Source: a virus. Taken from it: DNA of 64,000 nt. This document shows positions 2,719 through 60,595 of the stretch, piece after piece. How positions within the stretch are numbered: position 1 is the first letter of the stretch; each line of letters opens with the position of its first letter. The stretch spans positions 1 through 64,000 of the IMG/VR virus record IMGVR_UViG_3300008108_000057; one strand, 5' to 3'. A model generated the notes under the pieces. That model was not told where the DNA came from, did no database searches, and saw only the letters and a program-made list of their open reading frames with translations. A program made the translations under genes and the position numbers.

Positions 2719-2727
2719 GGAGAAAAT

Positions 2728-2901: not shown

Positions 2902-3185
2902 TGGCTACATTTATTGAAGTTGATTCTGTAGAAAAAGGCTGTAAAGTAATCATCAATCTTGATGATATTATTGAGATTGCTCCACTTGCTGCTGGTGGTT
3001 GTGTATTGTTCTTTGCTGATTCTGCTGCTGTTAATGGTAAGTCTGCATATGCCGTAAAAGATAGTTATGAACAATTCAAACAATTTGCAATGCAAACAGT
3101 AACGGCAGAATCTATTTCTGCTCGTTTCCCAACCAAGAAAGAATCAAAAGAGAAAACCGATAAACTGGAGATCCCTAAGTTCTAA
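2901..3185 (+). CDS. Small conserved phage protein, 94 aa
   Basis: It starts at the A shared with the preceding stop, with a GGAGG at 2892-2896 just upstream. The protein opens MATFIEVDSVEKGCKVIINL, a beta-rich domain, then KDSYEQFKQFAMQ and a Lys/Glu-rich tail. I recall similar short proteins in aquatic T4-like phages with no known role. No enzymatic motif is visible. Confidence 0.65.
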   Translation: MATFIEVDSVEKGCKVIINLDDIIEIAPLAAGGCVLFFADSAAVNGKSAYAVKDSYEQFKQFAMQTVTAESISARFPTKKESKEKTDKLEIPKF

Positions 3186-3187
3186 TC

Positions 3188-3796: not shown

Positions 3797-3809
3797 AAAA
3801 AATTTCAAA

Positions 3810-3827
3810 TTGTGACAGTTCCGTTAC
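3810..3827 (+). promoter_or_regulatory. Degenerate PHO-box-like direct repeat upstream of pstS (candidate)
   Basis: Two 7-base units, TTGTGAC and CCGTTAC, are separated by 4 bases, giving the 11-base periodicity of PhoB sites. Each matches the CTGTCAC form of the half-site at 5 of 7 positions. The location, 39 bases before the pstS start, is right, but the match is weak and could be chance. Confidence 0.25.
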
Positions 3828-3865
3828 TTTTTGAGTGTTTAAGCAGTTCAACCAAAGGAGATAAC

Positions 3866-4897: not shown

Positions 4898-4904
4898 GGA
4901 CAAA

Positions 4905-6311: not shown

Positions 6312-6366
6312 TTATATAAATCGGTCACAATGATAAGGTGACTCTGGACCCGTAACCAGAACTAAT

Positions 6367-7182: not shown

Positions 7183-7288
7183 TTTGCAGTTTGAAACACA
7201 ACAACAATGTGAACAAACTTTACAGTCTATGACATACTGGTTGAAGTTTGATAATTTCAAAGTTGAAGGAAAGTGTGTAAAGAGATGA
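7118..7288 (+). CDS. Small hypothetical protein, 56 aa, overlapping the LpxH-like gene
   Basis: This frame starts 65 bases before the end of the upstream gene and ends in an ATGA overlap with the glycosyltransferase. An AGGAG at 7106-7110 is 7 bases before its ATG. The product begins with an apolar stretch (MWLMILIAV) followed by PKDIPGRINLQF, a Gln-rich helix and YWLKFDNFKVEG, ending in CVKR. The composition is protein-like and both junctions favour a real, translationally coupled gene. Function unknown. Confidence 0.65.
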   Translation: MWLMILIAVHINNPKDIPGRINLQFETQQQCEQTLQSMTYWLKFDNFKVEGKCVKR

Positions 7289-7995
7289 AACTAAGCGATA
7301 AAATTACTATTGTTATTCCTTGTAGGAACGAAGAAAATTATATAAATCATTTGCTTAATTCTTTACGTCAACAGAAGATAGGTGACACTAGAATTATTAT
7401 TGCCGATTGTTCAACAGATAACACTAGAGAAGTAATAAGAAATAATCGTGCTTTTTTGAATATTGAAATTATTGAAGGTGGTCCTGTTGCAACTGCAAGA
7501 AATAATGCAGCCAAACTAGTTACGACACCTTATATTCTATTCATAGATGCCGATGTAATATTCTTTGATAATTACACAATTCGTGATGCTGTTTTTGAGA
7601 TGGAACACAACAACTTAGATTTGATTGGAGCAAACATCAAGTGTTATGAAGATAATTGGAAAGCAGAACTTGGGTTTATGATTTTCAATAAGATCAATCA
7701 TATACTAAAACATTTCTCTCCTTTTGCTGTTGGTGCATTCATGTTAACTCGCAAGAGTAAGTTTGATGAGTTTGGTGGGTTTCAAGATAAGTTTTTAACG
7801 TCAGAAGATTACTTCCTTTCACGAATGTATGATCCCAAAAAGTTTAAAATAATAAATCACTATTTTGGCCAAGATGCTAGACGATTTAAAAAGATGGGTT
7901 ACTTTGGTATGGCTTGGTACCTCATCAAGAATTTTTGGAATAGAAACAATGAGAAATATTGGAAGAATTTAGATGCTAGTAAGTATTGGAACTAA
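7285..7995 (+). CDS. Family 2 glycosyltransferase (GT-A fold)
   Basis: 236 aa. The ATG at 7285 overlaps the preceding TGA (ATGA); an in-frame GTG at 7273 is possible but not needed. The N-terminus ITIVIPCRNEENYI is the GT2 nucleotide-sugar binding strand, followed by ADCSTDNT and FIDADVIF, a DxD-type motif for the metal-bound sugar nucleotide. GAFMLTRKSKFDEFGGF and the TSEDYFLS acidic motif complete the catalytic half; the C-terminus is basic and aromatic. No membrane helices, so it is cytoplasmic or peripheral. It may glycosylate host surface polysaccharide or phage DNA or protein; the context favours the envelope. Confidence 0.85.
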   Translation: MKLSDKITIVIPCRNEENYINHLLNSLRQQKIGDTRIIIADCSTDNTREVIRNNRAFLNIEIIEGGPVATARNNAAKLVTTPYILFIDADVIFFDNYTIRDAVFEMEHNNLDLIGANIKCYEDNWKAELGFMIFNKINHILKHFSPFAVGAFMLTRKSKFDEFGGFQDKFLTSEDYFLSRMYDPKKFKIINHYFGQDARRFKKMGYFGMAWYLIKNFWNRNNEKYWKNLDASKYWN

Positions 7996-8001
7996 ATATA
8001 C

Positions 8002-8030
8002 TTGACTACTACGTTACAATCATATATAAT
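8002..8030 (+). promoter_or_regulatory. Sigma70-type promoter
   Basis: TTGACT at 8002-8007 and a perfect TATAAT at 8025-8030 are separated by 17 bases, in the 60-base gap before the gene at 8056. A late-type CTAAATA lies just upstream (7992-7998), so the region could serve both host and phage-modified polymerase. Confidence 0.65.
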
Positions 8031-8055
8031 TATACTATATTTTATGGAAGATTGA

Positions 8056-8697
8056 ATGATGGAAAATATGCTGAATGTACAAAGTCTTTATCCTTCTAAT
8101 GTGTACTGGATACACAGCCCACAATATCTTGAGATAGCGAAAGAAGTTTCTTATGCCTATCTAGCAGAAACAAAAAAACAATCCACTTGTAATCCTGCAT
8201 ATCCTGTACACATGACAGAGTATATGGATGATTCTAGACTGTATCCAATGGTTGAATATATTTGTGGTACTGGACATAATATCTTAGAATCACAAGGTTA
8301 CAATATGGAAGGATGGGTCGTAACGTGTAGGGAGTTTTGGTGTCAAGAACACGAAAAATATTCTGGTCACGAAGAACATGTACATGGTTTTGGTAATCAA
8401 CTGACAGGAATATATTTCTTAGATGTACCAGAAAATTCTTGTAAGTTTTCTGTATATGATCCAAGACCAGCAAAACGTCAAATTAACATGCCTCCCAAAA
8501 ACGTGAATGAGTTGACCGATGCAAGCACCATTGCTTTTTTTGATCCAAAGCCAGGGATGTTATATTTCACTAATTCATGGTTGCCTCACGGATTTACTAG
8601 AAATGGAAATGACGATTCCTTCACATTTATTCATTTCAATCTAGGTGTAGGAAGAATTAAAAATTATAACCCACCATCCGAAACAATTATCATATGA
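8056..8697 (+). CDS. 2OG-Fe(II) oxygenase (2OG-FeII_Oxy_5-like)
   Basis: 213 aa. The core follows the PF13759 pattern: HEEHVHGFGNQLTGIYFLD, a YDPR strand, FFDPKPGMLYFTNSWLPHGF and a closing IHFNLG, supplying the metal-binding His residues and the double-stranded beta-helix. Such enzymes hydroxylate using 2-oxoglutarate and oxygen; the substrate in phages is unknown. Starts at 8056 and 8059 are both possible after the GGAAG at 8046. A sigma70-type promoter lies just upstream, and the stop overlaps the next ATG (ATGA). It is the first of five oxygenase-like genes in this region. Confidence 0.75.
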   Translation: MMENMLNVQSLYPSNVYWIHSPQYLEIAKEVSYAYLAETKKQSTCNPAYPVHMTEYMDDSRLYPMVEYICGTGHNILESQGYNMEGWVVTCREFWCQEHEKYSGHEEHVHGFGNQLTGIYFLDVPENSCKFSVYDPRPAKRQINMPPKNVNELTDASTIAFFDPKPGMLYFTNSWLPHGFTRNGNDDSFTFIHFNLGVGRIKNYNPPSETIII

Positions 8698-8963
8698 ATA
8701 AATATAAGATACGATACAATCAAACAAGAGGTAATCCAGGTAGAGGCACACCTGATCATGTTTGGAGAGTATTTGAAAACAACAGAGAATATCTTTTTAA
8801 GAATGTGACCATCAATGTACCATGTAAAGGTGAATCTGAAGAAGATGGACAACATTGGAATATTGTGTGTCACGGTTACCTTCAAATAGATAGAGTAACC
8901 TCTACTGCGATTATTAATGACAAACCTAATGATATAACACTATGCCAACATACGAATTCTTGA
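8694..8963 (+). CDS. Conserved small phage protein, 89 aa
   Basis: Starts in an ATGA overlap with the oxygenase gene. It opens MNKYKIRYNQTRGNPGRGT, then HVWRVFENNREYLFKNVTIN, a compact beta-rich pattern that I recall from hypothetical proteins of aquatic T4-like phages. No catalytic motif. Its last 22 bases overlap the next gene in another frame, typical of tightly coupled early genes. Function unknown. Confidence 0.65.
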   Translation: MNKYKIRYNQTRGNPGRGTPDHVWRVFENNREYLFKNVTINVPCKGESEEDGQHWNIVCHGYLQIDRVTSTAIINDKPNDITLCQHTNS

Positions 8964-21461: not shown

Positions 21462-23014
21462 TATGTTGCTGCTCCTCGTGCAAAGGTTGATGCGTCTGAT
21501 CTAGGTACCGTCATAGTTTTTGAATTGTCTGCTGAAGCTACTACGTTATTGGTTTGATTTACCACGACAGGTCCTCCTGCTGCGGCCGCTTGTTGTTTTT
21601 TTAGGTCTTTGTTTTCTGTAGATGTTTCAGCTAATCTTTTACCAGATGAACTAGTTGAACCTTCTGGTAAATTAGAAGAATATTTCTCAACTTTAGATAA
21701 TAGTTCTGCACCATATCCTTTTGATAAATTTAATCCTCTTCCACCAATAGTTTGTGTTACTTCTCTATTTGCTTCAGATTGATTTTTAAATGAATTTATT
21801 TTATTTTTTCCTAATCCATCTCTGACAAAAACAATTGCAGCTCTAGCAGCAATCTGAGGATCGTTTAATTTTTCAGGATTACTTACCAAATCAATTCCAA
21901 GTTTTTTTCCTAACTCTCTATAATTATTTTTTCCGGTTACTTGTATAAATCCTCTACCAAGATATTTGAACCCATCACCTTCTTCCGTATTACCCATTGA
22001 TTTACCCATTTTAGTGTCTTTTCCATATACCATTTCGGCAAATTTATATGGGTCTTTCTTAATTTGATTTAATTCCTCATCAGAATATTTGTTTGCTCTT
22101 GCAGTAAATATTTCTCTAATTCTTTTATTACTAGTATTTGCATATGCCTTTAAATTCTCAGATTGAGGCACAAAATTAGATTCTTTTTGAATATTTGCTA
22201 AAATAGCCTTCTTTGCATATTCATTGGTTACTCCCAACTCATCTGCTTGAGCATTTACCATTCCAATTACTCCAGCAGCTCCAATTCCTATTTTTGCTGC
22301 TGTTGGTATTGCAGCACTGGGAACAGAAGAAGGTGCTGAGGGAGTAGGTCCTTTAGGCGCAGGTGTTGCTGAGGGAGTAGGTCCTTTAGGCGCAGGTGTT
22401 GCTGAGGGAGTAGGTCCTTTAGGTGCCGCTGCCGTTGGTGGTTGAGCACCAGGTGATGGTTTTGCACCTTTTGGGATTTCAGGTTTTTCTATTCCTTTTC
22501 CTTTAGGTGTTTCTTTTTTCAAATCTTGTATTTCTTTTTTTGTTTTGTCTGATTCTTTTTTAATTTTCTTAGTTTCTTTTTTCAGACCTTTTGGTTGTTT
22601 AGTTAAAGCCTCAATCAATTGTTGATTTCTTTTCTCTTTTACTTCATTGAAAGATTTTGCAAAGTTTTCTTCTATTTGAAGTTCTTTTTTCTTCTTTTCT
22701 TCGTTTCGTCTTATTAAACCATATAACTTACCAGCAATGTCTGTGATAGATTCGCCTTTCTGTGGAGGTACATCTGCTCTGGCAACTTTTGATACAAACT
22801 TAGGATCTTTTTTCTTGCTATCTTTTAATCCTTTTCTCATACCACCTTTTGTTCCAGCATAGTTATCGGTAGCAGATTTTTTTCTACCAAATATTCCCGA
22901 CACCAAATTAAAAGGATTGAGATTACTCATCAATCCTCTTGTATTGTTCTGCATTGTTTCTGATGGTTCTGGTCTGTTATTACCACCACCCAACAGACTT
23001 CCTAATATACTCAT
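21461..23014 (-). CDS. Tail-associated GH19 lysozyme / tape-measure-like protein
   Basis: 517 aa. N-terminal module shared with the following gene, then a Lys/Glu-rich coiled coil (about 100-170), a Pro-rich linker with three APKGPTPSAT-type repeats (197-228), and a GH19 chitinase/lysozyme domain (about 255-445). GH19 marks: Glu278 in QKESNF, Glu344/345 before YLGRGFIQVTGKNNY (351-365), and NPEKLNDPQIAA. It probably opens the peptidoglycan during DNA entry. The gp5 relative in this phage lacks a lysozyme domain, so this is its likely replacement. Its ATG overlaps the stop of the gp26 frameshift frame (ATGA); its stop overlaps the next start. Confidence 0.75.
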   Translation of the reverse strand: MSILGSLLGGGNNRPEPSETMQNNTRGLMSNLNPFNLVSGIFGRKKSATDNYAGTKGGMRKGLKDSKKKDPKFVSKVARADVPPQKGESITDIAGKLYGLIRRNEEKKKKELQIEENFAKSFNEVKEKRNQQLIEALTKQPKGLKKETKKIKKESDKTKKEIQDLKKETPKGKGIEKPEIPKGAKPSPGAQPPTAAAPKGPTPSATPAPKGPTPSATPAPKGPTPSAPSSVPSAAIPTAAKIGIGAAGVIGMVNAQADELGVTNEYAKKAILANIQKESNFVPQSENLKAYANTSNKRIREIFTARANKYSDEELNQIKKDPYKFAEMVYGKDTKMGKSMGNTEEGDGFKYLGRGFIQVTGKNNYRELGKKLGIDLVSNPEKLNDPQIAARAAIVFVRDGLGKNKINSFKNQSEANREVTQTIGGRGLNLSKGYGAELLSKVEKYSSNLPEGSTSSSGKRLAETSTENKDLKKQQAAAAGGPVVVNQTNNVVASADNSKTMTVPRSDASTFARGAAT

Positions 23015-39814: not shown

Positions 39815-42800
39815 ATGGCCCTAAATTTTAATGTTGACCCATATTATGATGATTTTGATCCATCAAAGAATTTTCATAGAATACTTTTCAAACCAGGATA
39901 TGCTGTACAAGCAAGAGAACTAACACAATCTCAAACTATTCTGCAAAATCAAATTAGTAATTTTGCTGATGCCATTTTTAGTCAAAATACTCCAGTCTCT
40001 GGTGGAAGAGTTTCACTTAACTTTGCAGCTATAGGAAATATTGGAGCTTATTACGTAAAGCTACAAACTCAATTTTCTGGTGTTGAAATTGACGTTAATA
40101 ATTTTCTAAACAAAGATATTCAAGATGTAAATGGAATTGTTCAAGCAAGAGTTATTGCTGTAGCAGAAGGAACTTTAATTGATCCTCCTACTCTTGTTGT
40201 AACCTACTATACTGGAGCTAAATTTAAGGACGCATCTACAATTATTTGTACCGATGGATCAAATTTTTCTGCCACTACTATAGGCACAAATACATCGGCT
40301 GAAACATGCACAGGTGCATCTTCAACAGTATCAATTTCAGAGGGTATTTTTTACATCATTAATGGTTATAACACTTCAAATGTTCAGAACCCAGATGGAA
40401 CATATAACAGATATTCAATTGGTAATTTTGTAAGTGTTTTACCTCAGACAATTATTCTTGACAAGTATGCTAGTAATCCAAGTGGTCGTGTAGGACTTTC
40501 AATTACAGAAACAATTGTAGATTATATTGATGATACTTCACTTTTAGATCCTGCTGTAGGAGCATCAAATTATCAAGCACCTGGTGCAGACAGATATAAA
40601 ATTTCATTGGAATTAGTTGTATTACCTCTCACACCAGGAAATGATGATCAATTTATTGAACTTGTCAGACTTGAAAATGGTAAAATTCTAAAACAAGTTG
40701 ACGGAACAGTATATTCAGTTATTAATGATTATATTTCAAAACGCACATACGAAACAGATGGTGATTTCATCGTTAATGAGTTTAGTTTTACACCAACTGC
40801 AAATACTGTAAATCCGGATCTTTATGATTTAAAAATTAGTAAAGGATTAGCATATATTCGTGGGTACAGAGTAGAAAATCAGTCAGACATAACATTCTCT
40901 ACCCCTAGAGCAAGATCAAATAACATTATTAATAACAATCAAGTTTATGTTGATTATGGTTCTTATGTGTTAGCAAATAATGTTTCTGGTACCTTTGATA
41001 TTACTACAATGCCAAAGATTGATTTGCATTGTGTAGCAAATTCAAATATTGTTTCAACAAACTCAGTAACATATTCTGCTACTTTAATTGGTTCTGCATT
41101 CTTAAGAAATATTGATTATGAAAGTAGTGTATCAGATTCAGATACATCGTCATATTCATACAAAATGTATATTACTGATGTAAGTGCAAATACTTTAAGT
41201 GGTACAGCATTAGCAGCAGGGTCATCCCCAACAACAATTCAATTTAATGACACTAATGGAAAATTCTCTGCTGTAGCAAACGCATATTTTGGTGTTAAAA
41301 TTTCCGCATTAACTTCTGGTTATACTGATGTTAGAGAAATTGTATCGTATGATGGAACAACAAAAACAGCAACGGTCGATTCACCATTCACATTAAATCC
41401 TACAAATTCTACTCAATTTAATTTACTGTTTTCAACAACAGATATTGAGTCTTTGATTAATGTGCCAAATGGTCCTGCAACACCTACCGTTAGAACTGCA
41501 TCGGCTAACATACCGAATGCAGGAAAATTTAACGGATTGTTTACTGGTGATACAATATTATATAATCCTACTCAAGCGGAACTGCTGTTCACTGTTGGTT
41601 ATCCATACGTATCAAATATTTCTGATAGTAGCTATATTTCACAAAAAGTTTTCAGATCAAAATCTTTCACCAGCTCAGGTGGAAATTTTGTAATGACTCT
41701 ATCGCTTCCTGTTAATACTGCAAATATCAAATTTATTGGAACAGGAACATTATCGTCAGATGCCATTAAACAAAACTTTACTGTAGTTAATAAGGCAAAT
41801 AATAGACAAATTCTAGATTTTGTATCTGCTGGAAATACTGTTGTTATTTCTTCCGACCAAAAAACAGCAACATTCACAACACCTGTTTATGGTACAACAA
41901 CAGTAGATGTTATTGCTGGAGTTTCTGTAGGAAATGCTGATAACTCAACGTTAGTCTTAAAGGCAAAAAATCTTGTAGTAGGAAATACTCAGATAGTGAG
42001 TTATGCTGGTCCTACAGCGATTGTTGATGCTAATACCTATCTTGATCTGACAAATGGACAAATTTATATTAAAGAATCTGCGGTAGGAAAAACAACATCA
42101 TTATATGTTTCTGATGTTAAGAAAATTAGAAAAATTATTAGTACAAAATCGTCAGTAACAGTACCAACAACATCAATGTTGTCTGATTCTTCATATGATG
42201 TAACTAGTTTGTTCTTGCTAGACAATGGACAAAGAGATAACTATTATGATTTTTCTGCTGTTAGATTGAAACCTGGAGCTTCTAGACCACTAGGAAATCT
42301 ATTGGTTATTTTTGATTACTATGCACATACTGGAGGAGATGGATACTTTGATGTAAATTCTTATCTAACCCCAATATCTTCTTCACCAGATCAATATAGA
42401 GAAATTGGTCAATATACAAGTAAAGCGGGTATCAACTACAGACTTACTGACAGTTTAGATTTTAGACCAGTTAGACAGGCACCATCTGGTAGTGTTTCTT
42501 CGGTTCCATTTACTTTGGAATATACTGGGAATCCATCTGCACCAGACGATAGTGGTATCTTAATTCCTCAAAACCTAAGTTACTTTACACATGATTATGC
42601 ATACTACTTAGGAAGAAAAGATAAACTTGTCATAACAAAAGATAATACAATTGATATTATTCTAGGAACACCTTCTGTTAATCCTACATTCCCGGCTGAA
42701 CCTGACGGAGCACTATTGCTTGCAAAGATGACTCTTGATCCATATACAGGTTATATTCCAGGTGAAGATTCGACAACACAACAGACAAATTATAGTATAG

Positions 42801-45800
42801 AAAGAGTACAACATAAAAATTGGATCAAACGAGATATTACTGATTTACAGGATCGTGTTAACAATCTCGAATACTATACTGCATTAAGTTTGCTCGAACA
42901 AAATGCACAGTCACTACAAATTCCAGATTCAAATGGTTTGAACAGATTTAAGAATGGTATTCTTGTAGATGACTTTTCTTCATATGCAACAGCAGATACA
43001 CGACTATCTGAAGGATTTAATGCTAAAATTGATATTGCGAAGAAACAATTGACACCTAGAAGTATTGTAGATAATTTAGCACTAAAAAATCCTATAGTTC
43101 TAAATTCATTGGGAACAATAAAACAGACAAATTCGTTTTATGTTCATACTATTGCCGGTAGTACAAATATATACACTCTACCCTACACAACCAAATTTAT
43201 TACTGGACAAACACTAGCAAGTAGCGTAGTATCTGTAAATCCATTTGGTGTTATCAGAAATGAAGGATCTATGCAATTATGTCCTCCTATGGATAATTGG
43301 GTAGATAATCAACAAGCACCTGATATTCTAGTAGTGGATCCAAGACTACAATTATTTCAAGCTAGTGGAACAAATCTCATTCAAAATGCTGGTAACTGGC
43401 AAACAATTCCAGGAACAACAAGCCAAACTCTTGCTGGTACTTCCACAGCCGTAACCACTACTGGAAACATACAAACAACTACGACAACACAAACATTTAA
43501 TGTATTTGGTAATCAAATACAAAATGTTATTAATTCGGGATATTCTGCAATTAATTCAACTATTGGATTAAACAATGGTTATATAACAAATATTGGGATA
43601 CTTGGATACATTCGTCCACAAAGAGTCCGCTTTAGAGCATCAGGATTACTAGCTAATGCTAAATTAAAAGCATTCTTTGATGGAGTAGATGTATCTAATG
43701 ACATTGTAAGTCCTAACATTATTAGAGTAGATAATGTATCTGGAGTTTTCAGAGAAGATGATATTGTAGGTTTCGAGATAGCTAATGTGTTTTATCCTGT
43801 AGGAAGAGTGTTGGGAGTAACACAGGTACCAGGAGCATCAACATCTTATAATTTGGCTATATTTGATATTGATGGTGCACCAGAATACCTAGCGGCAGCT
43901 ACGCTAAGAAATGCTAGATTCGATGAAAATGGAGTTTATGTTTCAGGATCTACTACCGCTAGTGGACAACTATCATCTGGAGTTTCACCACTAAACGTGT
44001 CTGGAACAATTAGAGGTCCTGCAGGATCACTTATTACAAATGCAAATACAAATGCGAACTTAATTTTTAGATCCACAAAGACTGATGCTACTTGGGGCGA
44101 CTTCTTAAAAATAAATGGTATGTGGGCAACTGGTAATAATATTACCGCATATCGTAGTTGGGATGCAACATATACTTTCACAGCAAACACTGGTGGTAAC
44201 TATGTTATAGCTGCTAGTTCTTGGAGAGACACTACAGCACCATTTGTGAATAGAACAGCAACAATTACTATTGACGGAACTGTTCAAATAAGTGCTACTG
44301 AATTGTATAATGCGACTCCAACGGGAACTGTCAGTAAGACAATCTCGTTGACACCTGGAAATCACACAATAAGAATAACAGCAAATGGTTCTGGTACACC
44401 ACTTGCCACAGTAGCAACTCAATCTGGCCTTGCATGTATTATAACAGAACCAGTAGGAACACCAGGAAGAAACATTGTATTCAATGCTTTATATCCACCT
44501 TCAGTAGATTATCCAAGCGGAACTCAAATAATCTTGCCTCTAGGAGGAGCATACTTTGATGGATTTACAAGAGTTTCTTTGGCCGCAGGAGCAAGTGAAC
44601 AAGATGATTTTTATATTGGTTCAACTATAACCATAACTACAAAATATCTGTACACTTATCTGTCTGATGGTAGCACACTACAAATTCCTGTTCCATTTAC
44701 ATCTGGAGGCGCAGGAGATGGAGGAATTACTGTAGGAAGCAGAACTTATGTTGGACCTGATGGAAGAACTGGATATGTTCTACAAAGCATAGAAACATAC
44801 ACCGCAAATATCATAGATTATGATGGTCAATTAAGAATTGCGACTTTAGATACACCAGTCAATCTATCATTAGGAGATAATCAATTATTTGGAAACATTA
44901 ATTCCACATACAGTATTAAAGGTAACCTTGTTAGTTTAGAAGAAGCAATTATAGATGGCACTACAGTACCAACTTTCTCTAGTGATGCTCAAGGTAATGT
45001 AACTGGTTTATTTGAGATTCGTCCAAATAGATTCAGAACTGGTGAAAGACTCTTTAGACTTGATAACAGAACTATATCTAATGATCCTCTAACTGCTACA
45101 TGTTATGCAGAAGCAACATTTACTGCCTCTGGATTATCATCTTCTAGACAAAAATTAGAATTTGCTCCGTCAGTTGATGCTGGTGGTAAAACTTTTATAC
45201 AAACCAATCAGAGAAGTGGTGCTTTCATAGGTACTGCGACACAAACAACTGTCACTCAGCAAGTAATAGCAGAACAAGGATTTAGAGGTTGTTGTTTCAT
45301 TGCTGGAACAAAGATTACCATGGCTGATGGTTCTATCAAAAATATTGAAGATGTTCAAATCGGTGATGAGTTGATTGGTAAAGATGGTTCTGTTAATACA
45401 GTGCTTGAGTATGTCAGACCTGTATTGGGAGAAAGAACACTAATCTCTCTAAATGATAGCACTCCTTTCATAACCAATGATCATCCAGTCTACATGAAAG
45501 ATGGCACATGGAAATCTTTTGATCCAGTTGCGACAAAATTAAAGTATAAAAAACTTTCTGACTGGAACATAGGTAAGTTGGAAGTTGGTGATGTCATTGA
45601 AACTGTAGACGGTGTAGGATTTAAAATTGAAACTATGTCTGAACATTCTGACAGAGATGATCTTCAAGTTTATAACTTCTCATTAAATGGAAACCACACC
45701 TATATTGCTAATAATCTAGTTGTTCACAACAAGTGTTTTGTTGCTGGTACTGAAGTTCTTATGAAGGACAACACTTGGAAGAATATAGAAGATGTAGAGT

Positions 45801-48800
45801 TGAATGATGTATTAATTGGTGAAAGTGGATCAGAAAACAGAGTAAGAGAATTCCATAGACCAACTCTAGGACTTATGGATCATATATTACCTCATAAACT
45901 GAGATTAGCATCAATTAACAATTCTGATTTTTCTGTATCTGAAGATCACATGATTAAAACAACTTCAGGTTGGAGAACACCGACAGTAGAGATGTGTAAG
46001 ATTCTACATGCCAAGACTTTAGAGATTGAGAATATTGACATTACTCAATTACAACTTGGCGACGATATCATATGCTCCGATGGCTCGCTACTAAGAGTTG
46101 AAAGCATTGAATTTAAAGAAGATGCTCCAGAAATACAATTGTATAACTTTAGATTGTACGGAAACAAAACATACCATGTACGTATGAAAGGTAGTGATAA
46201 GTTTATCTTAGTGCATAACAAGTGCTTTACTTCAGGCACAGAAGTCCTCATGAAGGACAACACTTGGAAGAACATTGAAGATGTTGAAATAAATGATGTA
46301 TTAATTGGTGAAAACGGATCTGAAAATAGAGTAAGAGAATTCCACAGACCAACTCTGGGACTCAATGATCACATCTTACCACATAAACTAAGACTGGCAT
46401 CAATTAATGAATCAAACTTCTCTGTCTCAGAAGATCATATGATCAAAACAACCTCTGGTTGGAGAACACCTACAGTAGAAATGTGTAAGATTCTTCATGC
46501 TAAGACTCTAAAAGGAGACAACATTGATATTTCTCAACTGCAAATTGGTGATGAAATTATATGTTCTGATGGCTCACTACTAAAAGTAGAAACTATTGAA
46601 TTTAAAGAAGATGTTCCAGAACTGCAACTCTACAATTTCAAACTATATGGAAACAAAACATACCATGTACGTATGAAAGGTGCAGAGAAGTTCATGCTAG
46701 TGCATAACAAGTGCTTTACTTCAGGCACAGAAGTATTGATGCATGATGGCTCTTGGAAAAATATTGAAGAAGTCGAACTTGGAGATATACTACTTGGTGA
46801 AGATGGTGCTGAAAATATGGTTAAAGAGTTTCATAGACCTGTACTAGGACTCAATGATCACATCTTACCACATAATCTAAGACTGGCATCTATTAATAAC
46901 TCAGAGTTTTCCGTGTCTGAAGATCACATGATCAAAACAACTTCAGGTTGGAGAACACCTACAGTAGAAATGTGTAAGATTCTACACGCTGAAACCTTGA
47001 AGAATGAAAATATAGACATTACTCAATTACAGCTTGGAGATGAAATCATATGCTCTGATGGCTCATTGTTAACAGTAGACAGCATTGAATTCAAAGAAGA
47101 TGCTCCGGATCTACAACTTTATAACTTCAAACTACATGGAAACAAAACATATCATGTACGTTTGAAAGGTAGTGACAAGTTTATCTTAGTACACAATAAA
47201 GATCCTCTTGCTCAAACGTTCGCTGTTCCTAAAGACAATTATCCAAATGGAGCATTCTTACGTTCAGTTAAGTTGTTCTTCCAATCAAAACCAACTGGAC
47301 CTAATGCTCCTGATGTTGAAGTGTATGTTGTTGGAACGACAAATGGTTACCCTAATGGAAAAAATTTAGATTATTCTGTAGCTAGAGTGAAGGCTCAAGA
47401 TATTAAAATTTCAAATAATCCACATTGGCTTGATCCAGAAACAGCAACGGAATTCGTATTTCCTGCTCCTGTTTACATTCAAAATAGTATTTTTTATGCC
47501 TTTGTTGTATTTTCGCATAGTCCTGACTACACAGTATACTTTGGACAACAAAACGCTGTTGCCGTGCCTTCTACAACAAAAGCATTGCCAACCGATCCTA
47601 ATCCTGCTAACCCAGGGAAAATTGGAGCAACTCCATATGTTGGTGGATTATTCGAATCCCAAAACGCTGTCACCTGGCAAGTTGATCAAACTAAACAAAT
47701 GATGTTTGTAATTGATCAATGTGTATTCACCACATCAGACTCAAAAACTTTGGAATTCTCTTTACCTTCTGGTTTACCATTTAGAGCAATTGATGTTCTC
47801 AACGATATTGTTCATACAACCAGTCCGGCTAGCATCAATAATACTTATGGTAACTTTGCACAAAAGGTACCAGTTATGCGTTCTGATGCAGTAAACGTCA
47901 CTACAACAGATTTTATTCCAACAGGAGCAGTAATTAAGTACACCGCAAGTGCAACATTAAATGATGGTGCAAATACTGTTGTTGGACAGTTCCCTGTGTT
48001 CCCAGGAAGACTTGGATCACCAACATATGATGATGTTGATTATGATGATGGAAGAGGACCAAGAGCGTTGCTTAGAGATGCAAATAACTCATTTAGACTT
48101 TTTGCAACCATGGCAACAGCAGATTCTAACACATCTCCAATTATCGCAGATGATGGTGTAAGTCTGTATAACATTAGATATGTGATTAACAATCTTGAAC
48201 TGTCTAACAGCATGATTGAAATTGTAGATGGAGGAACAGGGTATCATCCAGCAAACGTAGTTGCTACTGTAAGTCCACCTGATATTGGTAGTGATGCTGC
48301 AACATGTGGAGTTGTTCTAACTTCAAATGTAATTACCAATGTGTATTTGACAACCTTTGGTTCTGGGTATGTTAAAACTCCTACAATCACAATTACTGGA
48401 GCGAATACAACTCCTGCTACCGTTCTTATTCGTGGAGAGACTTCATCTGGTGGAGGTAATTTAACAACCGCAAGATACTTGACAAAAGTAGTAAAATTAA
48501 CTCCAGACAATGAATCTGGTGATTTAAGAGTATTCTATACAGCATACAAACCTCTAGGAACAGAAATCTATGTGTATTATAAGATTCTGAATTCGGACGA
48601 TACGGATGTAATTGATGATAAAGAATGGCAATTAATGACTCAGACAAGTACAATATCATATTCACTATCAAAACAAAATCTAATTGAATATGAATGTGCT
48701 CCTGGTGTCAATAATTTAGCAGATAACTTTATTTCATATACAAAAGGAACCGAAACTTACAATTCATTTAATCAGTTCCAAATCAAGTTTGTTATGACAA

Positions 48801-48874
48801 CAGAAGATACAACAAATATACCTTTTGTGACTGACATACGAGCATTAGCTTTACCATCTGGAACAGGATTGTAA
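39815..48874 (+). CDS. Giant virion structural protein (DUF4815-like) with four tandem Hint modules
   Basis: 3019 aa. The N-terminus (FNVDPYYDDFDPSKNFHRIL, FKPGYAVQARELTQSQTILQ) matches the DUF4815 type of large structural proteins in aquatic T4-like phages, probably baseplate-associated (gp10-like place after gp8). A carbohydrate-binding-like beta domain is around residues 1420-1540. Residues 1827-2461 are four Hint modules (146, 162, 162, 162 aa), joined by single Lys residues. Each starts with Cys and ends VHN. The structural sequence resumes at 2463 with DPLAQTFAV, a conserved site in relatives, so the array looks inserted. The C-terminus (2463-3019) is beta-rich with a GSGYVKTPTITITG module. 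Confidence 0.8.
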   Translation: MALNFNVDPYYDDFDPSKNFHRILFKPGYAVQARELTQSQTILQNQISNFADAIFSQNTPVSGGRVSLNFAAIGNIGAYYVKLQTQFSGVEIDVNNFLNKDIQDVNGIVQARVIAVAEGTLIDPPTLVVTYYTGAKFKDASTIICTDGSNFSATTIGTNTSAETCTGASSTVSISEGIFYIINGYNTSNVQNPDGTYNRYSIGNFVSVLPQTIILDKYASNPSGRVGLSITETIVDYIDDTSLLDPAVGASNYQAPGADRYKISLELVVLPLTPGNDDQFIELVRLENGKILKQVDGTVYSVINDYISKRTYETDGDFIVNEFSFTPTANTVNPDLYDLKISKGLAYIRGYRVENQSDITFSTPRARSNNIINNNQVYVDYGSYVLANNVSGTFDITTMPKIDLHCVANSNIVSTNSVTYSATLIGSAFLRNIDYESSVSDSDTSSYSYKMYITDVSANTLSGTALAAGSSPTTIQFNDTNGKFSAVANAYFGVKISALTSGYTDVREIVSYDGTTKTATVDSPFTLNPTNSTQFNLLFSTTDIESLINVPNGPATPTVRTASANIPNAGKFNGLFTGDTILYNPTQAELLFTVGYPYVSNISDSSYISQKVFRSKSFTSSGGNFVMTLSLPVNTANIKFIGTGTLSSDAIKQNFTVVNKANNRQILDFVSAGNTVVISSDQKTATFTTPVYGTTTVDVIAGVSVGNADNSTLVLKAKNLVVGNTQIVSYAGPTAIVDANTYLDLTNGQIYIKESAVGKTTSLYVSDVKKIRKIISTKSSVTVPTTSMLSDSSYDVTSLFLLDNGQRDNYYDFSAVRLKPGASRPLGNLLVIFDYYAHTGGDGYFDVNSYLTPISSSPDQYREIGQYTSKAGINYRLTDSLDFRPVRQAPSGSVSSVPFTLEYTGNPSAPDDSGILIPQNLSYFTHDYAYYLGRKDKLVITKDNTIDIILGTPSVNPTFPAEPDGALLLAKMTLDPYTGYIPGEDSTTQQTNYSIERVQHKNWIKRDITDLQDRVNNLEYYTALSLLEQNAQSLQIPDSNGLNRFKNGILVDDFSSYATADTRLSEGFNAKIDIAKKQLTPRSIVDNLALKNPIVLNSLGTIKQTNSFYVHTIAGSTNIYTLPYTTKFITGQTLASSVVSVNPFGVIRNEGSMQLCPPMDNWVDNQQAPDILVVDPRLQLFQASGTNLIQNAGNWQTIPGTTSQTLAGTSTAVTTTGNIQTTTTTQTFNVFGNQIQNVINSGYSAINSTIGLNNGYITNIGILGYIRPQRVRFRASGLLANAKLKAFFDGVDVSNDIVSPNIIRVDNVSGVFREDDIVGFEIANVFYPVGRVLGVTQVPGASTSYNLAIFDIDGAPEYLAAATLRNARFDENGVYVSGSTTASGQLSSGVSPLNVSGTIRGPAGSLITNANTNANLIFRSTKTDATWGDFLKINGMWATGNNITAYRSWDATYTFTANTGGNYVIAASSWRDTTAPFVNRTATITIDGTVQISATELYNATPTGTVSKTISLTPGNHTIRITANGSGTPLATVATQSGLACIITEPVGTPGRNIVFNALYPPSVDYPSGTQIILPLGGAYFDGFTRVSLAAGASEQDDFYIGSTITITTKYLYTYLSDGSTLQIPVPFTSGGAGDGGITVGSRTYVGPDGRTGYVLQSIETYTANIIDYDGQLRIATLDTPVNLSLGDNQLFGNINSTYSIKGNLVSLEEAIIDGTTVPTFSSDAQGNVTGLFEIRPNRFRTGERLFRLDNRTISNDPLTATCYAEATFTASGLSSSRQKLEFAPSVDAGGKTFIQTNQRSGAFIGTATQTTVTQQVIAEQGFRGCCFIAGTKITMADGSIKNIEDVQIGDELIGKDGSVNTVLEYVRPVLGERTLISLNDSTPFITNDHPVYMKDGTWKSFDPVATKLKYKKLSDWNIGKLEVGDVIETVDGVGFKIETMSEHSDRDDLQVYNFSLNGNHTYIANNLVVHNKCFVAGTEVLMKDNTWKNIEDVELNDVLIGESGSENRVREFHRPTLGLMDHILPHKLRLASINNSDFSVSEDHMIKTTSGWRTPTVEMCKILHAKTLEIENIDITQLQLGDDIICSDGSLLRVESIEFKEDAPEIQLYNFRLYGNKTYHVRMKGSDKFILVHNKCFTSGTEVLMKDNTWKNIEDVEINDVLIGENGSENRVREFHRPTLGLNDHILPHKLRLASINESNFSVSEDHMIKTTSGWRTPTVEMCKILHAKTLKGDNIDISQLQIGDEIICSDGSLLKVETIEFKEDVPELQLYNFKLYGNKTYHVRMKGAEKFMLVHNKCFTSGTEVLMHDGSWKNIEEVELGDILLGEDGAENMVKEFHRPVLGLNDHILPHNLRLASINNSEFSVSEDHMIKTTSGWRTPTVEMCKILHAETLKNENIDITQLQLGDEIICSDGSLLTVDSIEFKEDAPDLQLYNFKLHGNKTYHVRLKGSDKFILVHNKDPLAQTFAVPKDNYPNGAFLRSVKLFFQSKPTGPNAPDVEVYVVGTTNGYPNGKNLDYSVARVKAQDIKISNNPHWLDPETATEFVFPAPVYIQNSIFYAFVVFSHSPDYTVYFGQQNAVAVPSTTKALPTDPNPANPGKIGATPYVGGLFESQNAVTWQVDQTKQMMFVIDQCVFTTSDSKTLEFSLPSGLPFRAIDVLNDIVHTTSPASINNTYGNFAQKVPVMRSDAVNVTTTDFIPTGAVIKYTASATLNDGANTVVGQFPVFPGRLGSPTYDDVDYDDGRGPRALLRDANNSFRLFATMATADSNTSPIIADDGVSLYNIRYVINNLELSNSMIEIVDGGTGYHPANVVATVSPPDIGSDAATCGVVLTSNVITNVYLTTFGSGYVKTPTITITGANTTPATVLIRGETSSGGGNLTTARYLTKVVKLTPDNESGDLRVFYTAYKPLGTEIYVYYKILNSDDTDVIDDKEWQLMTQTSTISYSLSKQNLIEYECAPGVNNLADNFISYTKGTETYNSFNQFQIKFVMTTEDTTNIPFVTDIRALALPSGTGL
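45293..47197 (+). repeat. Tandem array of four Hint (hedgehog/intein-like) modules
   Basis: Modules start at Cys codons 45293, 45734, 46223 and 46712; the last three are spaced exactly 489 bases and are highly similar. Each opens CF[IVT][AS]GT (intein block A), has an xDH block B (TNDH in module 1, SEDH in 2-4), a YNF-L-GN-TY block F, and ends VHN followed by Lys. Module 1 keeps the block F His (GNHTY); modules 2-4 have Lys there (GNKTY). No homing endonuclease domain. The missing +1 Cys/Ser/Thr argues for cleavage rather than classical splicing. Confidence 0.88.
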
Positions 48875-49098: not shown

Positions 49099-51774
49099 AT
49101 GGCTAATACAGTTACTTTATTGAGCTATGCCAATACTTTTGGCGATTGGGTAGTTACTACAAATAAACTCATACAAGAAAATAATGATCTTGCTGCGAAC
49201 AATTATGTAAAATCAACAGGAACTTTATTTCTTAGTTCTCCCACTCTTGGTCTCCAAGTAGCAAACAATGCTGTTGTTCAAGGACAACTTCAAGTTTCTG
49301 GTATTGGTTCATCTGCCTATATTCAAAAAAATATTCAGGTTGATGGTTCAATCATAGGAGCATCAAACAATTACTTTATTGCAAATGATGCTAACACAAT
49401 ACTTAATATTACTCAGTCTGGTTCAGGACTTGTATTAAGAATTAATCCTCAACCAGGAGGAATGGGTACAGCAGGTGCAAACTCAACTGTAATTGATGGC
49501 AACGGTAACGTGTATATTGGTTCAGCATTTGCAGGACCATTCAAACTAAATGTTGCTAATGGTAATGTTAATTTCTCGAATAATCTAATAGTTGGTCGTA
49601 CTGTTAATTCGCCTATAATAGTAGGAGCAAATAATGTTATTGGTGATGTAGTATCAGGAAATACTAGAGTAATATCTCCTGTCGTTATAGGTACCACATC
49701 TGTCACAAGTAATTTTATTACAGCAAACACGCAGATTAATACACCTACGGTTGTAGCTTCAAGTAATGTTATTAGTAGTATAATATCAGCAAATACTAGA
49801 GTAATATCTCCTGTCGTTATAGGTACCACATCTGTCACTAGTAATTTAATTACAGCAAATGTATTAGCAACGACACCAGAATTAATAGTAACATCAAAGA
49901 TAGATGCAAACCAAGCATTTATATATGCTGATAGAACTGTTTCGAATACTGTAGTAGTTCAAGGAACTTTCTTCATTAATGGTGATACTGCATATAACTC
50001 ACCTACCTTTACAATTAATTCCGCAGAAATTATTGCTTCAAATGGAAGCTTTATTAATGCTAGAGGACCATTATCAAATGCTGAAATAAAATGGAATGAG
50101 ATTAATGATTGGTGGGAGCTTAAAGATGTAAATAATCCTATTAGCTATTCTAAAATACTAACAGCAAACTTAATTAGTGATTCCACCGTATTACCAAGTT
50201 CTAATAATATTGCAAGTTCTGTAACAGTAAATTACTTACAGAATGTGTCAAACACACAAAATGTTTGGATCAATAATACTAATACCTTTGCTTCTATGGG
50301 TGCATTTACTGCTAACCAAGCATGGGTAGGTGCTAATACTGCTAATGGTAACATAATAGCATTGCAGTCACAAATGTTTACTGTAAATGCTAATGTTACT
50401 GCTACCAATAGCCTAACTCAAGCAGCATTTAATAGAGCAAACAATGGTGTTTTCAATGGAACGACTGGTGCTGCTACTGGTTCTGTTGGAGTTATTTCAT
50501 TCAGCAGTAATAATGGTGTTACAATATACGGTTCATCAAACGTACTTAATATTAGCACATCACAAGATTTAAGAAGTACAGCAAGCCCAACATTCGATAG
50601 TTTAACTTTAACCAATCCACTTGCGATTTCACAAGGTGGTACTGGATCAACATCAGCAGCATCAGCACTTACTGCACTTCTTCCGACAGGAACAACTGCT
50701 GGATATATTCTGACTACTGGTGGTCCAGGAAGTTTCTATTGGGCAGCAGGTGGCGGAGGTGGTGGAGGTGGAACCACTCCAGGAACAACGATTAGCTCCT
50801 CTCGTCTATCATATATTGCAAATGGTGTAACCTCAGCATACACGACACCAACGTATATACCGGGAGCGGCTCAATTAAGAGTGTATTTTGATGGTGTTAG
50901 ACAGTTTGCCGCAGGCTATACAGAAACAAGTAACACTAGCGTTACGTTTACAACTCCTGTAACAAGTGGAATTAATATTCTTTTTGAAGTTGATGGATAT
51001 ATCAATAACCCATATTATGCGAACAATATTGCATACACAATTAATTCAGATATCTCACCGACAGCGAATAGTATTCAATTAGCCATTGATGGATTAACAT
51101 CTAAACTAACAACTTATTATGCTAACACGAATGGTGGAACTCAAACATTCACTAATGTTGTACTTGCACCAACACCTACAATTAATAGTCCTTCTGGTAA
51201 TACACAAATAGCTACAACTGCATTTGTCAATAATAAAGCAAACTCAGGTGTAACATTTACTGCAAGCATTACTGGTTCTGCTGGCTCTGTTGCTAATACA
51301 GGTATTGTAGGATTAATTACAAATGCACAATTAGCAGGACCCATCGGTATGACAGTAACCGATGACACATCAAGTTCAAGCACCAGTTATATTACATTTA
51401 CTCAACAAACTTCTGGTACAAGTTTCAGTTCTAATGTTTCAAGCACCAAATTGACGTTTGTTCCATCAACTGGAACATTGTCTGCTACTATAATGACAGC
51501 AACATCAGATAAAAATCTGAAAGAAAATATTGTAGGAATTTCTGATGCGTTGAATACTGTCATGCGATTGAAAGGTGTTGAGTATAACTGGAAAGATACT
51601 GGAGAAAAAGGTATGGGTCTAGTTGCTCAAGAGGTTGAAGAAATTCTTCCTTATCTTGTTTCAGAAAACGAAAATGGAAAATCAGTCATGTATCAAAATA
51701 TGATTGGATTGTTAGTTGAAGCTATCAAAGAATTAAAGCAAGAAATAAACACACTCAAAGGTGATAATAAATGA
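49099..51774 (+). CDS. Tail fibre protein with C-terminal S74 chaperone domain
   Basis: 891 aa. N-terminal ANTFGDWVVTTNKLIQENN is an attachment module common in T4-like aquatic fibres. The middle has beta repeats, including a 44-residue unit occurring twice (ANTRVISPVVIGTTSVTSN), then Ala/Asn repeats, a Gly run (GGGGGGGG) and a SRLSYIANGVTSAYTTP domain. The C-terminus (SDKNLKENIVGISDAL, KGMGLVAQEVEEILP) is the S74 intramolecular chaperone, which assembles the trimer and then cuts itself off at the Ser of the SDKNLK start. The stop overlaps the next start (ATGA). Confidence 0.85.
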   Translation: MANTVTLLSYANTFGDWVVTTNKLIQENNDLAANNYVKSTGTLFLSSPTLGLQVANNAVVQGQLQVSGIGSSAYIQKNIQVDGSIIGASNNYFIANDANTILNITQSGSGLVLRINPQPGGMGTAGANSTVIDGNGNVYIGSAFAGPFKLNVANGNVNFSNNLIVGRTVNSPIIVGANNVIGDVVSGNTRVISPVVIGTTSVTSNFITANTQINTPTVVASSNVISSIISANTRVISPVVIGTTSVTSNLITANVLATTPELIVTSKIDANQAFIYADRTVSNTVVVQGTFFINGDTAYNSPTFTINSAEIIASNGSFINARGPLSNAEIKWNEINDWWELKDVNNPISYSKILTANLISDSTVLPSSNNIASSVTVNYLQNVSNTQNVWINNTNTFASMGAFTANQAWVGANTANGNIIALQSQMFTVNANVTATNSLTQAAFNRANNGVFNGTTGAATGSVGVISFSSNNGVTIYGSSNVLNISTSQDLRSTASPTFDSLTLTNPLAISQGGTGSTSAASALTALLPTGTTAGYILTTGGPGSFYWAAGGGGGGGGTTPGTTISSSRLSYIANGVTSAYTTPTYIPGAAQLRVYFDGVRQFAAGYTETSNTSVTFTTPVTSGINILFEVDGYINNPYYANNIAYTINSDISPTANSIQLAIDGLTSKLTTYYANTNGGTQTFTNVVLAPTPTINSPSGNTQIATTAFVNNKANSGVTFTASITGSAGSVANTGIVGLITNAQLAGPIGMTVTDDTSSSSTSYITFTQQTSGTSFSSNVSSTKLTFVPSTGTLSATIMTATSDKNLKENIVGISDALNTVMRLKGVEYNWKDTGEKGMGLVAQEVEEILPYLVSENENGKSVMYQNMIGLLVEAIKELKQEINTLKGDNK
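49659..49838 (+). repeat. Two copies of a perfect 48-bp direct repeat in a fibre gene
   Basis: The 48 bases at 49659-49706 and 49791-49838 are identical, 132 bases apart, encoding the repeated NTRVISPVVIGTTSV segment. Identity at DNA level suggests recent duplication and a site for recombination. Confidence 0.8.
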
Positions 51775-52790
51775 CAACGAAAGTAACAAGTTTAGTATTA
51801 GCTAATACTGCCGTTACACCTGGAACTTATGGTAGTACAACACAAATTCCTACATTTGCTGTAGACGGTCAAGGTAGAATTACTTCAGCAGCAAATGCTG
51901 CTATATTATTTGGTACTATGGCAACTCAAAATTCAAGTAATGTCAATATTACTGGTGGTTCGGTAACTGGTATTACTGATCTTGCTGTTGCGGATGGTGG
52001 TACTGGAGCATCTGACGCTGCAACAGCTAGAACTAATTTGGGTCTAGGTACTGTTGCGGTTGAAAATACTGTTCCTGTAGCCAAAGGTGGTACTGGTGCT
52101 ACTGATGCTGGAACAGCTAGAACTAATTTGGGTCTAGGTAGCGTTGCAGTTGAGAACACTGTTCCTGTAGCCAAAGGTGGTACAGGAGCTACTGATGCTG
52201 GAGGTGCGAGAAGCAACTTAGGCTTGGGTACTATGAGTACTCAAAATAGTACAGGAGTAAGTATCACAGGAGGTGCAATAGCATCACTTAGTACTTTTTC
52301 AACCAGTGGTTTCTCTGATGCAAACTTGTATGGATCGGTTTCGATATATGGTGGAACAACAGGAGAATATGAAACATTTGCGTCAACTACAAGTATGTTT
52401 TCTAGTAGTCCAGCGGCAGATGTGGATTTAGGTTCATACATACTCTCTAGTTCCTTTTCTTATACAGTGTTGAGAATCAAAACTCAGGGAATATATATTC
52501 CAAATGCTTTTAATCCGGTCAATCCACTCCCATCAAGACTTTATAAAGACTTTTCTGTTGGAATATGGTATAATCAAAGTACAGGTGTTTATACAGTAGA
52601 TTTTGGTACAAACCTAGTTGCTTTTAATAGCGATGGCACCAACTTTGCTGCGGGCGCCTGGAATTCTGGTAGAGCCGCTATAGTAGGTGCTGGAACAACT
52701 TCTCTTGTGTATAGATTTACAAATAGAGCATCACCAGCAGCAGATTCGTCAACTTATTTCTATACTTTATTCGAGATAACAAAATGGTAA
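51771..52790 (+). CDS. Tail fibre protein with GGTGATDA repeats
   Basis: 339 aa. N-terminal SLVLANTAVTPGTYGSTTQI is an attachment module shared with the protein at 53080. Three 30-residue repeats follow, each with GGTGA(T/S)DA and ARTNLGLG, like the repeats of lambda Stf and other fibre proteins. The C-terminal half (DFSVGIWYNQSTGVYTVDFG and NRASPAADSSTYFY) is a unique beta domain, probably the receptor-binding part, with a paralogue two genes on. The stop overlaps a small gene by 7 bases. Confidence 0.75.
   Translation: MTTKVTSLVLANTAVTPGTYGSTTQIPTFAVDGQGRITSAANAAILFGTMATQNSSNVNITGGSVTGITDLAVADGGTGASDAATARTNLGLGTVAVENTVPVAKGGTGATDAGTARTNLGLGSVAVENTVPVAKGGTGATDAGGARSNLGLGTMSTQNSTGVSITGGAIASLSTFSTSGFSDANLYGSVSIYGGTTGEYETFASTTSMFSSSPAADVDLGSYILSSSFSYTVLRIKTQGIYIPNAFNPVNPLPSRLYKDFSVGIWYNQSTGVYTVDFGTNLVAFNSDGTNFAAGAWNSGRAAIVGAGTTSLVYRFTNRASPAADSSTYFYTLFEITKW
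51993..52229 (+). repeat. 90-bp tandem repeat in a tail fibre gene
   Basis: Units begin at about 51993, 52083 and 52173, each encoding GGTGxxDAxxAR(T/S)NLGLG and, in the first two, a VENTVPVAK linker. The third is truncated. The second and first are near-identical in DNA. Confidence 0.75.
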
Positions 52791-58381: not shown

Positions 58382-60595
58382 TTGGTTGCAACTGCTGATA
58401 ATGGTACTGAAGATGATACATATATTGCCGCAGGTATCGGTAGTAGTCAACATAGTGTTTCAGACTATACTTTGGTTGGACCAAACGATGGATACCTTTA
58501 TGTGTCAGGTAACACAACTACTGGTGGTGGTGATCTTGTAATAGGTACATTTTTACCCCAAAATGATGTAATAATTGCCGCAGGCGGCATGAATACAGAA
58601 AATGAACAGATGCGTATCATCGGTTCAAGCAACACAATTAGTATTCGTTCTAATGTAAATTCAAGTTTAGCTAAAAGTGTACTTCTAGGACCCATTGCAA
58701 ATCTTCATATCACTGGAGGAAGTACAGGTCAATTATTATCTACTGATGGTTCTGGAAATTTAAGTTTTATCAATTCTCCAGCAGACTTAGCTTCTGCTGC
58801 TTATGCTCAAGCTAATAATGCATCAAGTAATACTGTAGCTATACAGGCAGTTAATGATCTACAGAATACTAATATTACTTCAGTAAACACTTTTGCTGCA
58901 TCAGCATTTAATAGTGCTAATGCTGGAGTTACTCTAGCAACTGCTGCTTTTGAGGTAGCAAATACCGCAGCAGGTAATACTGTGGCTCTACAGTCACAGA
59001 TGACTACCACAAATACTAATATTACATCAGTAAACACATTTGCTGGTTCTGCTTTTAATTCTGCTAATGCAGGAGTAACTTTAGCAACGGCTGCCTTTGA
59101 AGCAGCAAACACCGCAGCAGGTAATACTGTTTACCTACAAACAGTTAATAACCTACAAAATACAAATATTACTGCTGTTAATACGTTTGCTCAAGCAGCT
59201 TATGATAAGGCGAATACTGGAGGTGGTGGAAGTGATACTGTAGCATTCGCTGCTTATGCTCAAGCTAATAATGCATCAAGTAATACTGTAGCCTTGCAAG
59301 CAGTTAATGATCTACAGAATACCAATATTACTTCAGTCAATACATTTACTCAGGCAGCATATAACTCAGCAAATGCAGGAGTAACTTTAGCAACGGCTGC
59401 CTTTGAAGCAGCAAACACCGCAGGATCAAATACTGTATACTTACAAGCAGTTAATGATCTACAGAATACCAATATTACTAGTGTTAATACCTTTGCTCAA
59501 GCAGGATTCAACAAAGCAAATGATGCAGTACAAACAGGGTTCACAACAATATCTGCAAATGCTGTTTCAATTACACCAGCAAATAATGCAGACACCTTAA
59601 CAATTAATCCTGGTACCAATATAACAATATCTGCATGTACCACTACAAAAACAATTACAATTAATTCGACAGCAAGTGGTGGTGGAGGTGGAAGTACAAC
59701 ATTAATATCTGACGTTAGGTCTTTTATTGCCAATAGTGGACAAACAGTATTTACTGTTCCTACATATGTTGTAGGAGAAAATAGAATTAGAGTATTTGTT
59801 AACGGTGTAAGACAAAATAATGTTGTCGATTATGCTGAAACTAATCCAACAACTATAACTTTAAATCCTGCGGCTGACGCAGGTGATAATGTTGTTTTTG
59901 AAGTTACTGCCTTTGATGGAGCATTAACTCCAAACCAAAACACTTGGATTAATAATACTGATACTTTTGCTAAAATGGCTGCCTTTACTGCCAATGCAGC
60001 ATATAATACAGCAAACACTCCACCAACTAGAGGAATAACAACAGACGCTAGTTATTATCCAGTTTTTGTTGACGCTAATAATTCTACCGCATTAGTTGAA
60101 TCACTTCATACCAACTTAAATTTAAATTATAATCCTTCCACTTCATTACTATTTGTATCTTCTGCTAACATATTATCTTTAGGTGTTGGAACAGCACCAT
60201 CTCCAACTGGTGGTGATATTCGTGCATCCAACAATATTACTGCATTCTTCTCTGATGAAAGATTGAAAATAAACATCAAACCTATTGATAATGCATTAGA
60301 AAAGATACAAGAAATTTCTGGTGTATACTATAATACAAATGAATTGGCTAGAACATACGGTTATACTGACACATCCGAACATGTCGGTGTTATAGCACAA
60401 CAAATTCAAAGTGTGTTACCACACGCTGTTAAGCCTGCTCCATTCGACACAGACTTTGATAAAAATGGAAATATATTTTCGAAATCTGGAGAAAATTATC
60501 TAACTGTACAGTATGAAAAATTAATTCCTCTCTTAATTCAAGCAATTAAAGAACAGCAAGAACAGATTGATGAGTTGAAACGAAATGCTAAATAA
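58382..60595 (+). pseudogene. Tail fibre gene, 3' part of a frameshifted gene, with S74 chaperone
   Basis: The frame is open well upstream of 58382 and has no good ATG or ribosome site, so it reads as the rest of the gene at 57282. It holds the ATADNGTEDDTYIAAGIG module (also in the protein at 36658), at least five Ala/Asn repeats (AAFEAANTAAGNTVYLQ, NDLQNTNITSVNTF), a SFIANSGQTVFTVPTYVVG beta domain shared with the fibre at 49099, and a C-terminal S74 chaperone (SDERLKINIKPIDNALEKIQ, HVGVIAQQIQSVLP). 737 residues from the TTG at 58382. Confidence 0.7.

Follow-up and report, generated by a model that had tools for sequence, protein, structure and literature searches.

We found that a 3019-aa virion protein encoded in the window (the whole stretch of 64,000 nucleotides of DNA from an uncultured phage analyzed here) contains four abutting intein-like (Hint) modules, which resemble A-type bacterial intein-like (BIL) domains most closely and which probably process themselves after translation, resulting in two chains or in one religated chain. 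This reading is based on the predicted fold, catalytic residues, conservation, purifying selection, and empty and split-gene homologues, from which we infer the reactions and the dominant product.

A module array at a conserved junction of a baseplate protein

Translation of the ORF gave four Cys...VHN modules at residues 1827-2461 with lone Lys spacers, as the original prediction had described (Table 1). All four start with CF and end with VHN, and module 4 is followed by K-DPLAQTF. The exact 489-bp period predicted for modules 2-4 was reproduced by the coordinates and by Tandem Repeats Finder (45752-47190, period 489, 2.9 copies). In the full virus record of 163,380 bases, a profile of type I modules (see below) matched these four modules only.

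Table 1. Positions in the window of the module-bearing ORF, its parts, and the predicted catalytic residues of the modules.
Feature	Position	Strand	Remarks
Whole ORF, 3019 aa	39815..48874	+	DUF4815-type baseplate protein with module array
N-part, aa 1-1826, C-terminus ...EQGFRGC	39815..45292	+	DUF4815; match to 9euf chain 0
Module 1, type I, 146 aa, aa 1827-1972	45293..45730	+	
Module 1 residues	Cys1 45293-45295; block-B His 45482-45484; His-Asn 45725-45730	+	
Lone Lys, module 1/module 2 spacer	45731..45733	+	
Module 2, type II, 162 aa, aa 1974-2135	45734..46219	+	
Module 2 residues	Cys1 45734-45736; block-B His 45947-45949; His-Asn 46214-46219	+	
Lone Lys, module 2/module 3 spacer	46220..46222	+	
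Module 3, type II, 162 aa, aa 2137-2298	46223..46708	+	AF2 pLDDT 93.7
Module 3 residues	Cys1 46223-46225; block-B His 46436-46438; His-Asn 46703-46708	+	
Lone Lys, module 3/module 4 spacer	46709..46711	+	
Module 4, type II, 162 aa, aa 2300-2461	46712..47197	+	
Module 4 residues	Cys1 46712-46714; block-B His 46925-46927; His-Asn 47192-47197	+	
Lys, +1 of module 4	47198..47200	+	
C-part, 557 aa, N-terminus DPLAQTF	47201..48874	+	Own gene from this point in L190

The 3019-aa protein matches DUF4815 and phrog_358, and its ORF comes after several consecutive baseplate genes (tail tube cap, hub/lysozyme, and wedge subunits). Its N-terminal region and DPLAQTF part both match chain 0 of PDB 9euf, a solved DUF4815 protein. 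The family, gene neighbours, and 9euf matches imply that the 3019-aa protein most likely belongs to the baseplate or associates with it, which supports the earlier placement of the array in a tail or baseplate protein at a conserved junction. Homologues of the N-part and the DPLAQ-F part are likewise united in chain 0 of 9euf (ORF65), but this chain has 1152 aa and was matched as module-free. DPLAQTF, which had been proposed as a conserved point after the array, is conserved in relatives both with and without modules. The linker upstream is highly variable; A-type BIL domains are found in variable regions of non-conserved proteins.

Other repeats occur in the window. A 147-bp tandem repeat (4.6 copies) lies in a tail-fibre-like ORF at 58820-59508, shorter repeats lie at 51996-52202 (90 bp) and 49655-49860 (66 bp), and an endolysin-like ORF on the minus strand contains a perfect 33-bp repeat of 2.7 copies (22334-22423).

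The copies have diverged under purifying selection

Module 1 shows 39-41% aa identity to modules 2-4, which are pairwise 81-87% identical in aa and 78-81% in nucleotides. Third codon positions take 64-70 of the approximately 90-105 nucleotide differences among modules 2-4, and dN/dS is 0.06-0.11, with dS above 1. Among the modules of a seven-module array (L081), dN/dS is 0.04-0.14. Thus, purifying selection has acted on each copy since duplication, which disfavours a repeat generated by assembly. The original prediction had named an assembly artefact as a danger to its reading, and we consider this explanation of the four-module array highly improbable. It draws on a 99.9% identical contig (L012) that breaks inside the array, where 316 and 268 bp are lacking (between window positions 45682 and 45999, and 46702 and 46971). 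These gaps break the reading frames, have almost no microhomology, and are probably an assembly join rather than a true deletion variant. Against an artefact, L012 matches the window at 100% over 704 bp across the junction of modules 2 and 3, the DNA of the copies is ~20% apart, chiefly at silent sites, and independent contigs also bear arrays of 2, 3, 4, and up to 7 modules.

The modules are closest to A-type BIL domains

A Pfam search of the 3019-aa protein gave Hom_end_hint (1e-43, four stretches), PT-HINT (1e-23), and Hint_2 (2e-13); in NCBIfam, the window modules matched no specific family above its cut-off. The top PDB match by sequence for type I was 2LWY, a BIL domain (E 2.6e-9). An AF2 model of module 3 had a mean pLDDT of 93.7. 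When this model was compared by Foldseek and VIA-align 2, 6y75 (BUBL1 BIL2) ranked first (Z 18.0, 134 aligned, rmsd 2.1 A) and 2lwy second (Z 16.3), with inteins below, and the alignments to the BIL structures ran from the first to the last residue. An AF2 model of the array together with its flanks (951 aa) had a pLDDT of 53 and was too poor to inform packing. The predicted intein-like (Hint) identity was thus borne out by the Pfam search and the fold prediction, and by nearest sequence and predicted fold the window modules come closest to A-type BIL domains.

Like the A-type BIL domain of Clostridium thermocellum (2LWY), the phage modules combine the Hint fold with Cys1, a block-B His, and a C-terminal His-Asn, have a non-nucleophilic +1 residue, lack an endonuclease, and are preceded by a variable linker. 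Unlike the single modules of the literature, they occur as 2-7 abutting copies, usually one Lys or Arg apart, in virion baseplate or tail proteins, and their +1 residue is mostly basic. The Tetrahymena BUBL1 locus offers the closest fold (BIL2, 6y75/6tmm, Z 18.0; PMC8616854), and there too a BIL domain lies within a repetitive precursor, with lysine chemistry reported (PMC8616854). However, BIL2 is located between ubiquitin-like domains, whereas the phage modules abut directly; Pfam found no ubiquitin-like domain in the 3019-aa protein. Class 1 inteins share the Hint fold and N-terminal chemistry, but their +1 residue is Cys, Ser, or Thr and that of the window modules is Lys. Neighbouring inteins of haloarchaeal MCM (PMC10643990) also occur several to a protein, but at separate insertion sites and some with an endonuclease. 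The original prediction had linked the modules to the Hint domains of polymorphic toxins. PT-HINT (PF07591) does share a Pfam match and the HN end, but A-type BIL domains are closer in sequence and fold, and the window array is followed by a conserved baseplate domain, present also in module-free homologues, and by no toxin domain. The Hedgehog Hog domain lacks a C-terminal HN and acts in sterol transfer, whereas all four window modules have the HN.

Conserved catalytic residues and a basic +1 residue

Exactly four columns are invariant in 132 aligned modules, namely Cys1, the block-B His, the penultimate His, and the last Asn. Full-length modules were partly chosen by search patterns and a full-length filter, which biases the result toward invariant end residues; the block-B His is free of this bias. 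A smaller earlier set of 65 modules gave the identical four columns. As judged from the alignment, these four columns are the predicted Hint catalytic residues.

The +1 residue of the 132 modules is Lys in 83, Arg in 27, Gly in 13, and Ser or Thr in 3, and is never Cys. In agreement with the non-nucleophilic +1 residue claimed earlier, Lys follows each of the four window modules, in place of Cys, Ser, or Thr. At the junction, a Lys/Arg-led +1 was present in 21 of 21 module-bearing rows, mostly directly before DP, compared to a K or R before DP in 1 of 14 module-free rows (an Arg), with a few rows representing the same phage. This difference implies that the basic residue goes with the module and not with the site. 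Since Arg is frequently found in this position, we discarded the idea that the epsilon-amine of the +1 Lys is generally an obligatory nucleophile.

Modules 2-4 have Lys at the block-F His position (NKTY instead of NHTY), as had been noted before, and Ser where the block-B Thr is expected. These substitutions imply that the reaction rates of modules 2-4 may be low. The suggestion that module 1 is chemically unlike modules 2-4 was weakened by the rest of the family, since most type II modules elsewhere have the block-F His and several type I modules have Asn instead. Because the block-F His shows a mixed pattern across the family, we rejected it as a sign that the first module of an array differs chemically from those after it. 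Type II modules retain additional His residues (alignment columns 41, 97, and 154), which might constitute a metal site like the one reported for BIL2.

The junction is empty, filled, or split in relatives

IMG/VR searches for relatives (L numbers) yielded 114 distinct module-bearing ORFs. Two or more complete modules, spaced by 1-4 residues, are present in about 19 of them, and 32 inter-module spacers consist of exactly one residue. The window array is not unique but one of these approximately 19 ORFs. The same junction has no module in L011 (C-part 72% identical) and the more distant L015-L029, one module in L006, L009, and others, two in L005 and L070, three in L073, and four in the window, L003, and L084. 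The longest array, of seven modules with the last lacking HN, occurs in a glycine-rich tail protein (L081). In L076 and L083, arrays close the C-terminus of the N-part or tail protein gene.

The N-part and C-part are separate genes in L013, L014, L076, L083, L180, and L190. Both parts in L190 were each confirmed as homologous to the window protein, and its C-part gene opens M-ALGRI-DPLAQTF, near the residue that C-terminal cleavage would free in the window. The C-part gene of L180 reads M-ANEVNHNFSKRI-HPLAQTF. The existence of split-gene homologues implies that the two halves can function either joined in a single chain, as in L011 and 9euf, or as two chains. The module-free and split-gene relatives show that the array occupies a dispensable junction joining two baseplate parts.

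Searches beyond this set yielded no further arrays. A strict tandem junction pattern had 43 matches in 84,980 cellular genomes, with 0 tandem Hint pairs; a nucleotide search among phages matched nothing; and tblastn of the modules against a phage collection gave scattered intein-like matches (helicase, portal, terminase, hypothetical) and no array.

Module types and array ends

In a tree of 37 modules, type I modules, which come first in arrays, are apart from the type II modules that follow, and a third type with +1 Arg ends two arrays (L070 and L084). Window modules 2-4 form one clade adjoining module 2 of L005 (support 98), and modules 4 and 5 of L081 pair with support 100, implying that amplification is partly lineage-specific. 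Arrays form the extreme C-terminus in L074 and L077, which end VHN-K-stop. A Hint module that lacks HN and has Cys1 and a block-B-like His ends several C-terminal arrays (L076, L081, and L083) and stands alone in L013.

Several further arrangements were observed. The HN-less terminal module (L013:5797-6459; array C-termini of L076, L081, L083, and L180) leads into a conserved helical tail, and this combination is found at the C-ends of differing tail proteins. At the C-terminus of the N-part in L014 (ORF 1332-6473) and L190 (ORF 3624-8798), the HN-less Hint is replaced by a Cys-containing helical domain (CCVVATAM... / VICTALYGLGY..., RGYH), for which a search for a named family found none. Upstream of the C-terminal arrays of L074 (6143-8413, minus strand), L077, and L067 is a diverged Hint-like stretch ending HN-AP-C. 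In L043-L054, lone Hint modules with +1 Gly lie in poly-glycine linkers of ~440-aa proteins, and some of these contigs have a second module in the large tail protein encoded next to it, which in L043 resembles central tail fibre J.

Putative self-processing and its alternatives

In A-type BIL domains as described, Cys1 forms a thioester and the C-terminal Asn mediates cleavage; ligation results if the amine released in this way reacts with the thioester, but most products are those of cleavage (PMC4031507; PMC7664689). In line with the original prediction, Hint modules with a non-nucleophilic +1 residue at a conserved junction are read most simply as autoprocessing elements. In the window protein, Cys1 and the block-B His would convert the preceding peptide bond to a thioester. 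At the other end of each module, cyclization of the last Asn, together with the penultimate His, would sever the module from the Lys behind it. Hydrolysis of the thioester would then complete cleavage, whereas its attack by the newly exposed alpha-amine of this Lys would bring about ligation. Consequently, the ~635-aa array would be removed, and the baseplate protein would end up either as two chains, with an N-part ending in GC and a C-part starting with K-DPLAQTF, or as one religated chain with a scar of up to four lysines. The copies themselves were probably made by in-frame duplication of a module-plus-Lys unit.

Between these outcomes, our analysis leans slightly toward two chains. Characterized A-type BIL domains mostly cleave, related phages split the two parts into genes, the chance of a whole chain would drop as modules are added, and the break is tolerated in split-gene homologues. 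If an unbroken chain were essential, arrays of 4-7 modules would need splicing far better than that of the BIL domains described.

The leading alternative, which we regard as possible although clearly less probable than the main reading, is that the modules are passive passengers: efficient splicing religates the chain, duplication is neutral since the copies remove themselves, and selection acts only for removal. Module-free single-chain homologues (L011; 9euf chain 0), the variable copy number with partly lineage-specific duplication, and a mature linker whose length would resemble most empty sites are as expected for passengers. However, at BIL-like efficiency every extra module cuts the odds of an unbroken chain, arrays of 4-7 modules persist though dS is near or above 1, and the C-terminal arrays of L074 and L077 have nothing to religate.

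It is unlikely that the Cys1 thioester instead hands the N-part to an amine or nucleophile of another protein, in a Hedgehog-like or BUBL-like manner, and so attaches it covalently in the baseplate. In BIL2, which has the nearest fold, the N-extein is reported to be joined to lysine through an isopeptide bond (PMC8616854); moreover, the HN-less terminal modules retain Cys1 and the block-B His, and C-terminal arrays finish VHN-K-stop. Yet Arg is the +1 residue of 27 of 132 modules, so that no Lys side chain is required at +1, and the processing modules retain an HN that would be superfluous in a pure transfer domain. Similarly doubtful is a speculative extension in which the copy-variable BIL chain is a baseplate cutter-ligator, whose thioesters pass the N-part to their own +1 or to a neighbouring lysine. 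If so, the baseplate would contain covalent cross-links or an oligo-lysine joint, and array length would set the ratio of cutting to joining. Slightly less probable again is that the Hint domains are dead structural decoration that fills space or binds something without reacting; modules 2-4 did lose the block-F His, but the sole invariant columns in 132 modules are the four catalytic residues.

Significance

The A-type BIL module itself is a known kind of domain. In literature on tandem or adjacent Hint domains, BIL domains, and inteins, the only relevant report was that on MCM neighbouring inteins (PMC10643990). In the literature searched, in which subscription journals are thinly covered, we found no description of virion proteins that carry arrays of abutting modules with one-residue exteins, and the original statement that Hint domains arrayed in tandem are undescribed for phage structural proteins holds for that literature. 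The array marks a junction that is a single chain in some phages and two genes in others, and relatives provide a natural series of 0, 1, 2, 3, 4, and 7 modules. The modules are a new source of compact, predicted self-processing domains with Lys or Arg at +1. As conserved and tandemly amplified elements of phage baseplate and tail proteins, A-type BIL domains gain a concrete, testable role, which may be programmed chain scission or scarred ligation during baseplate assembly.
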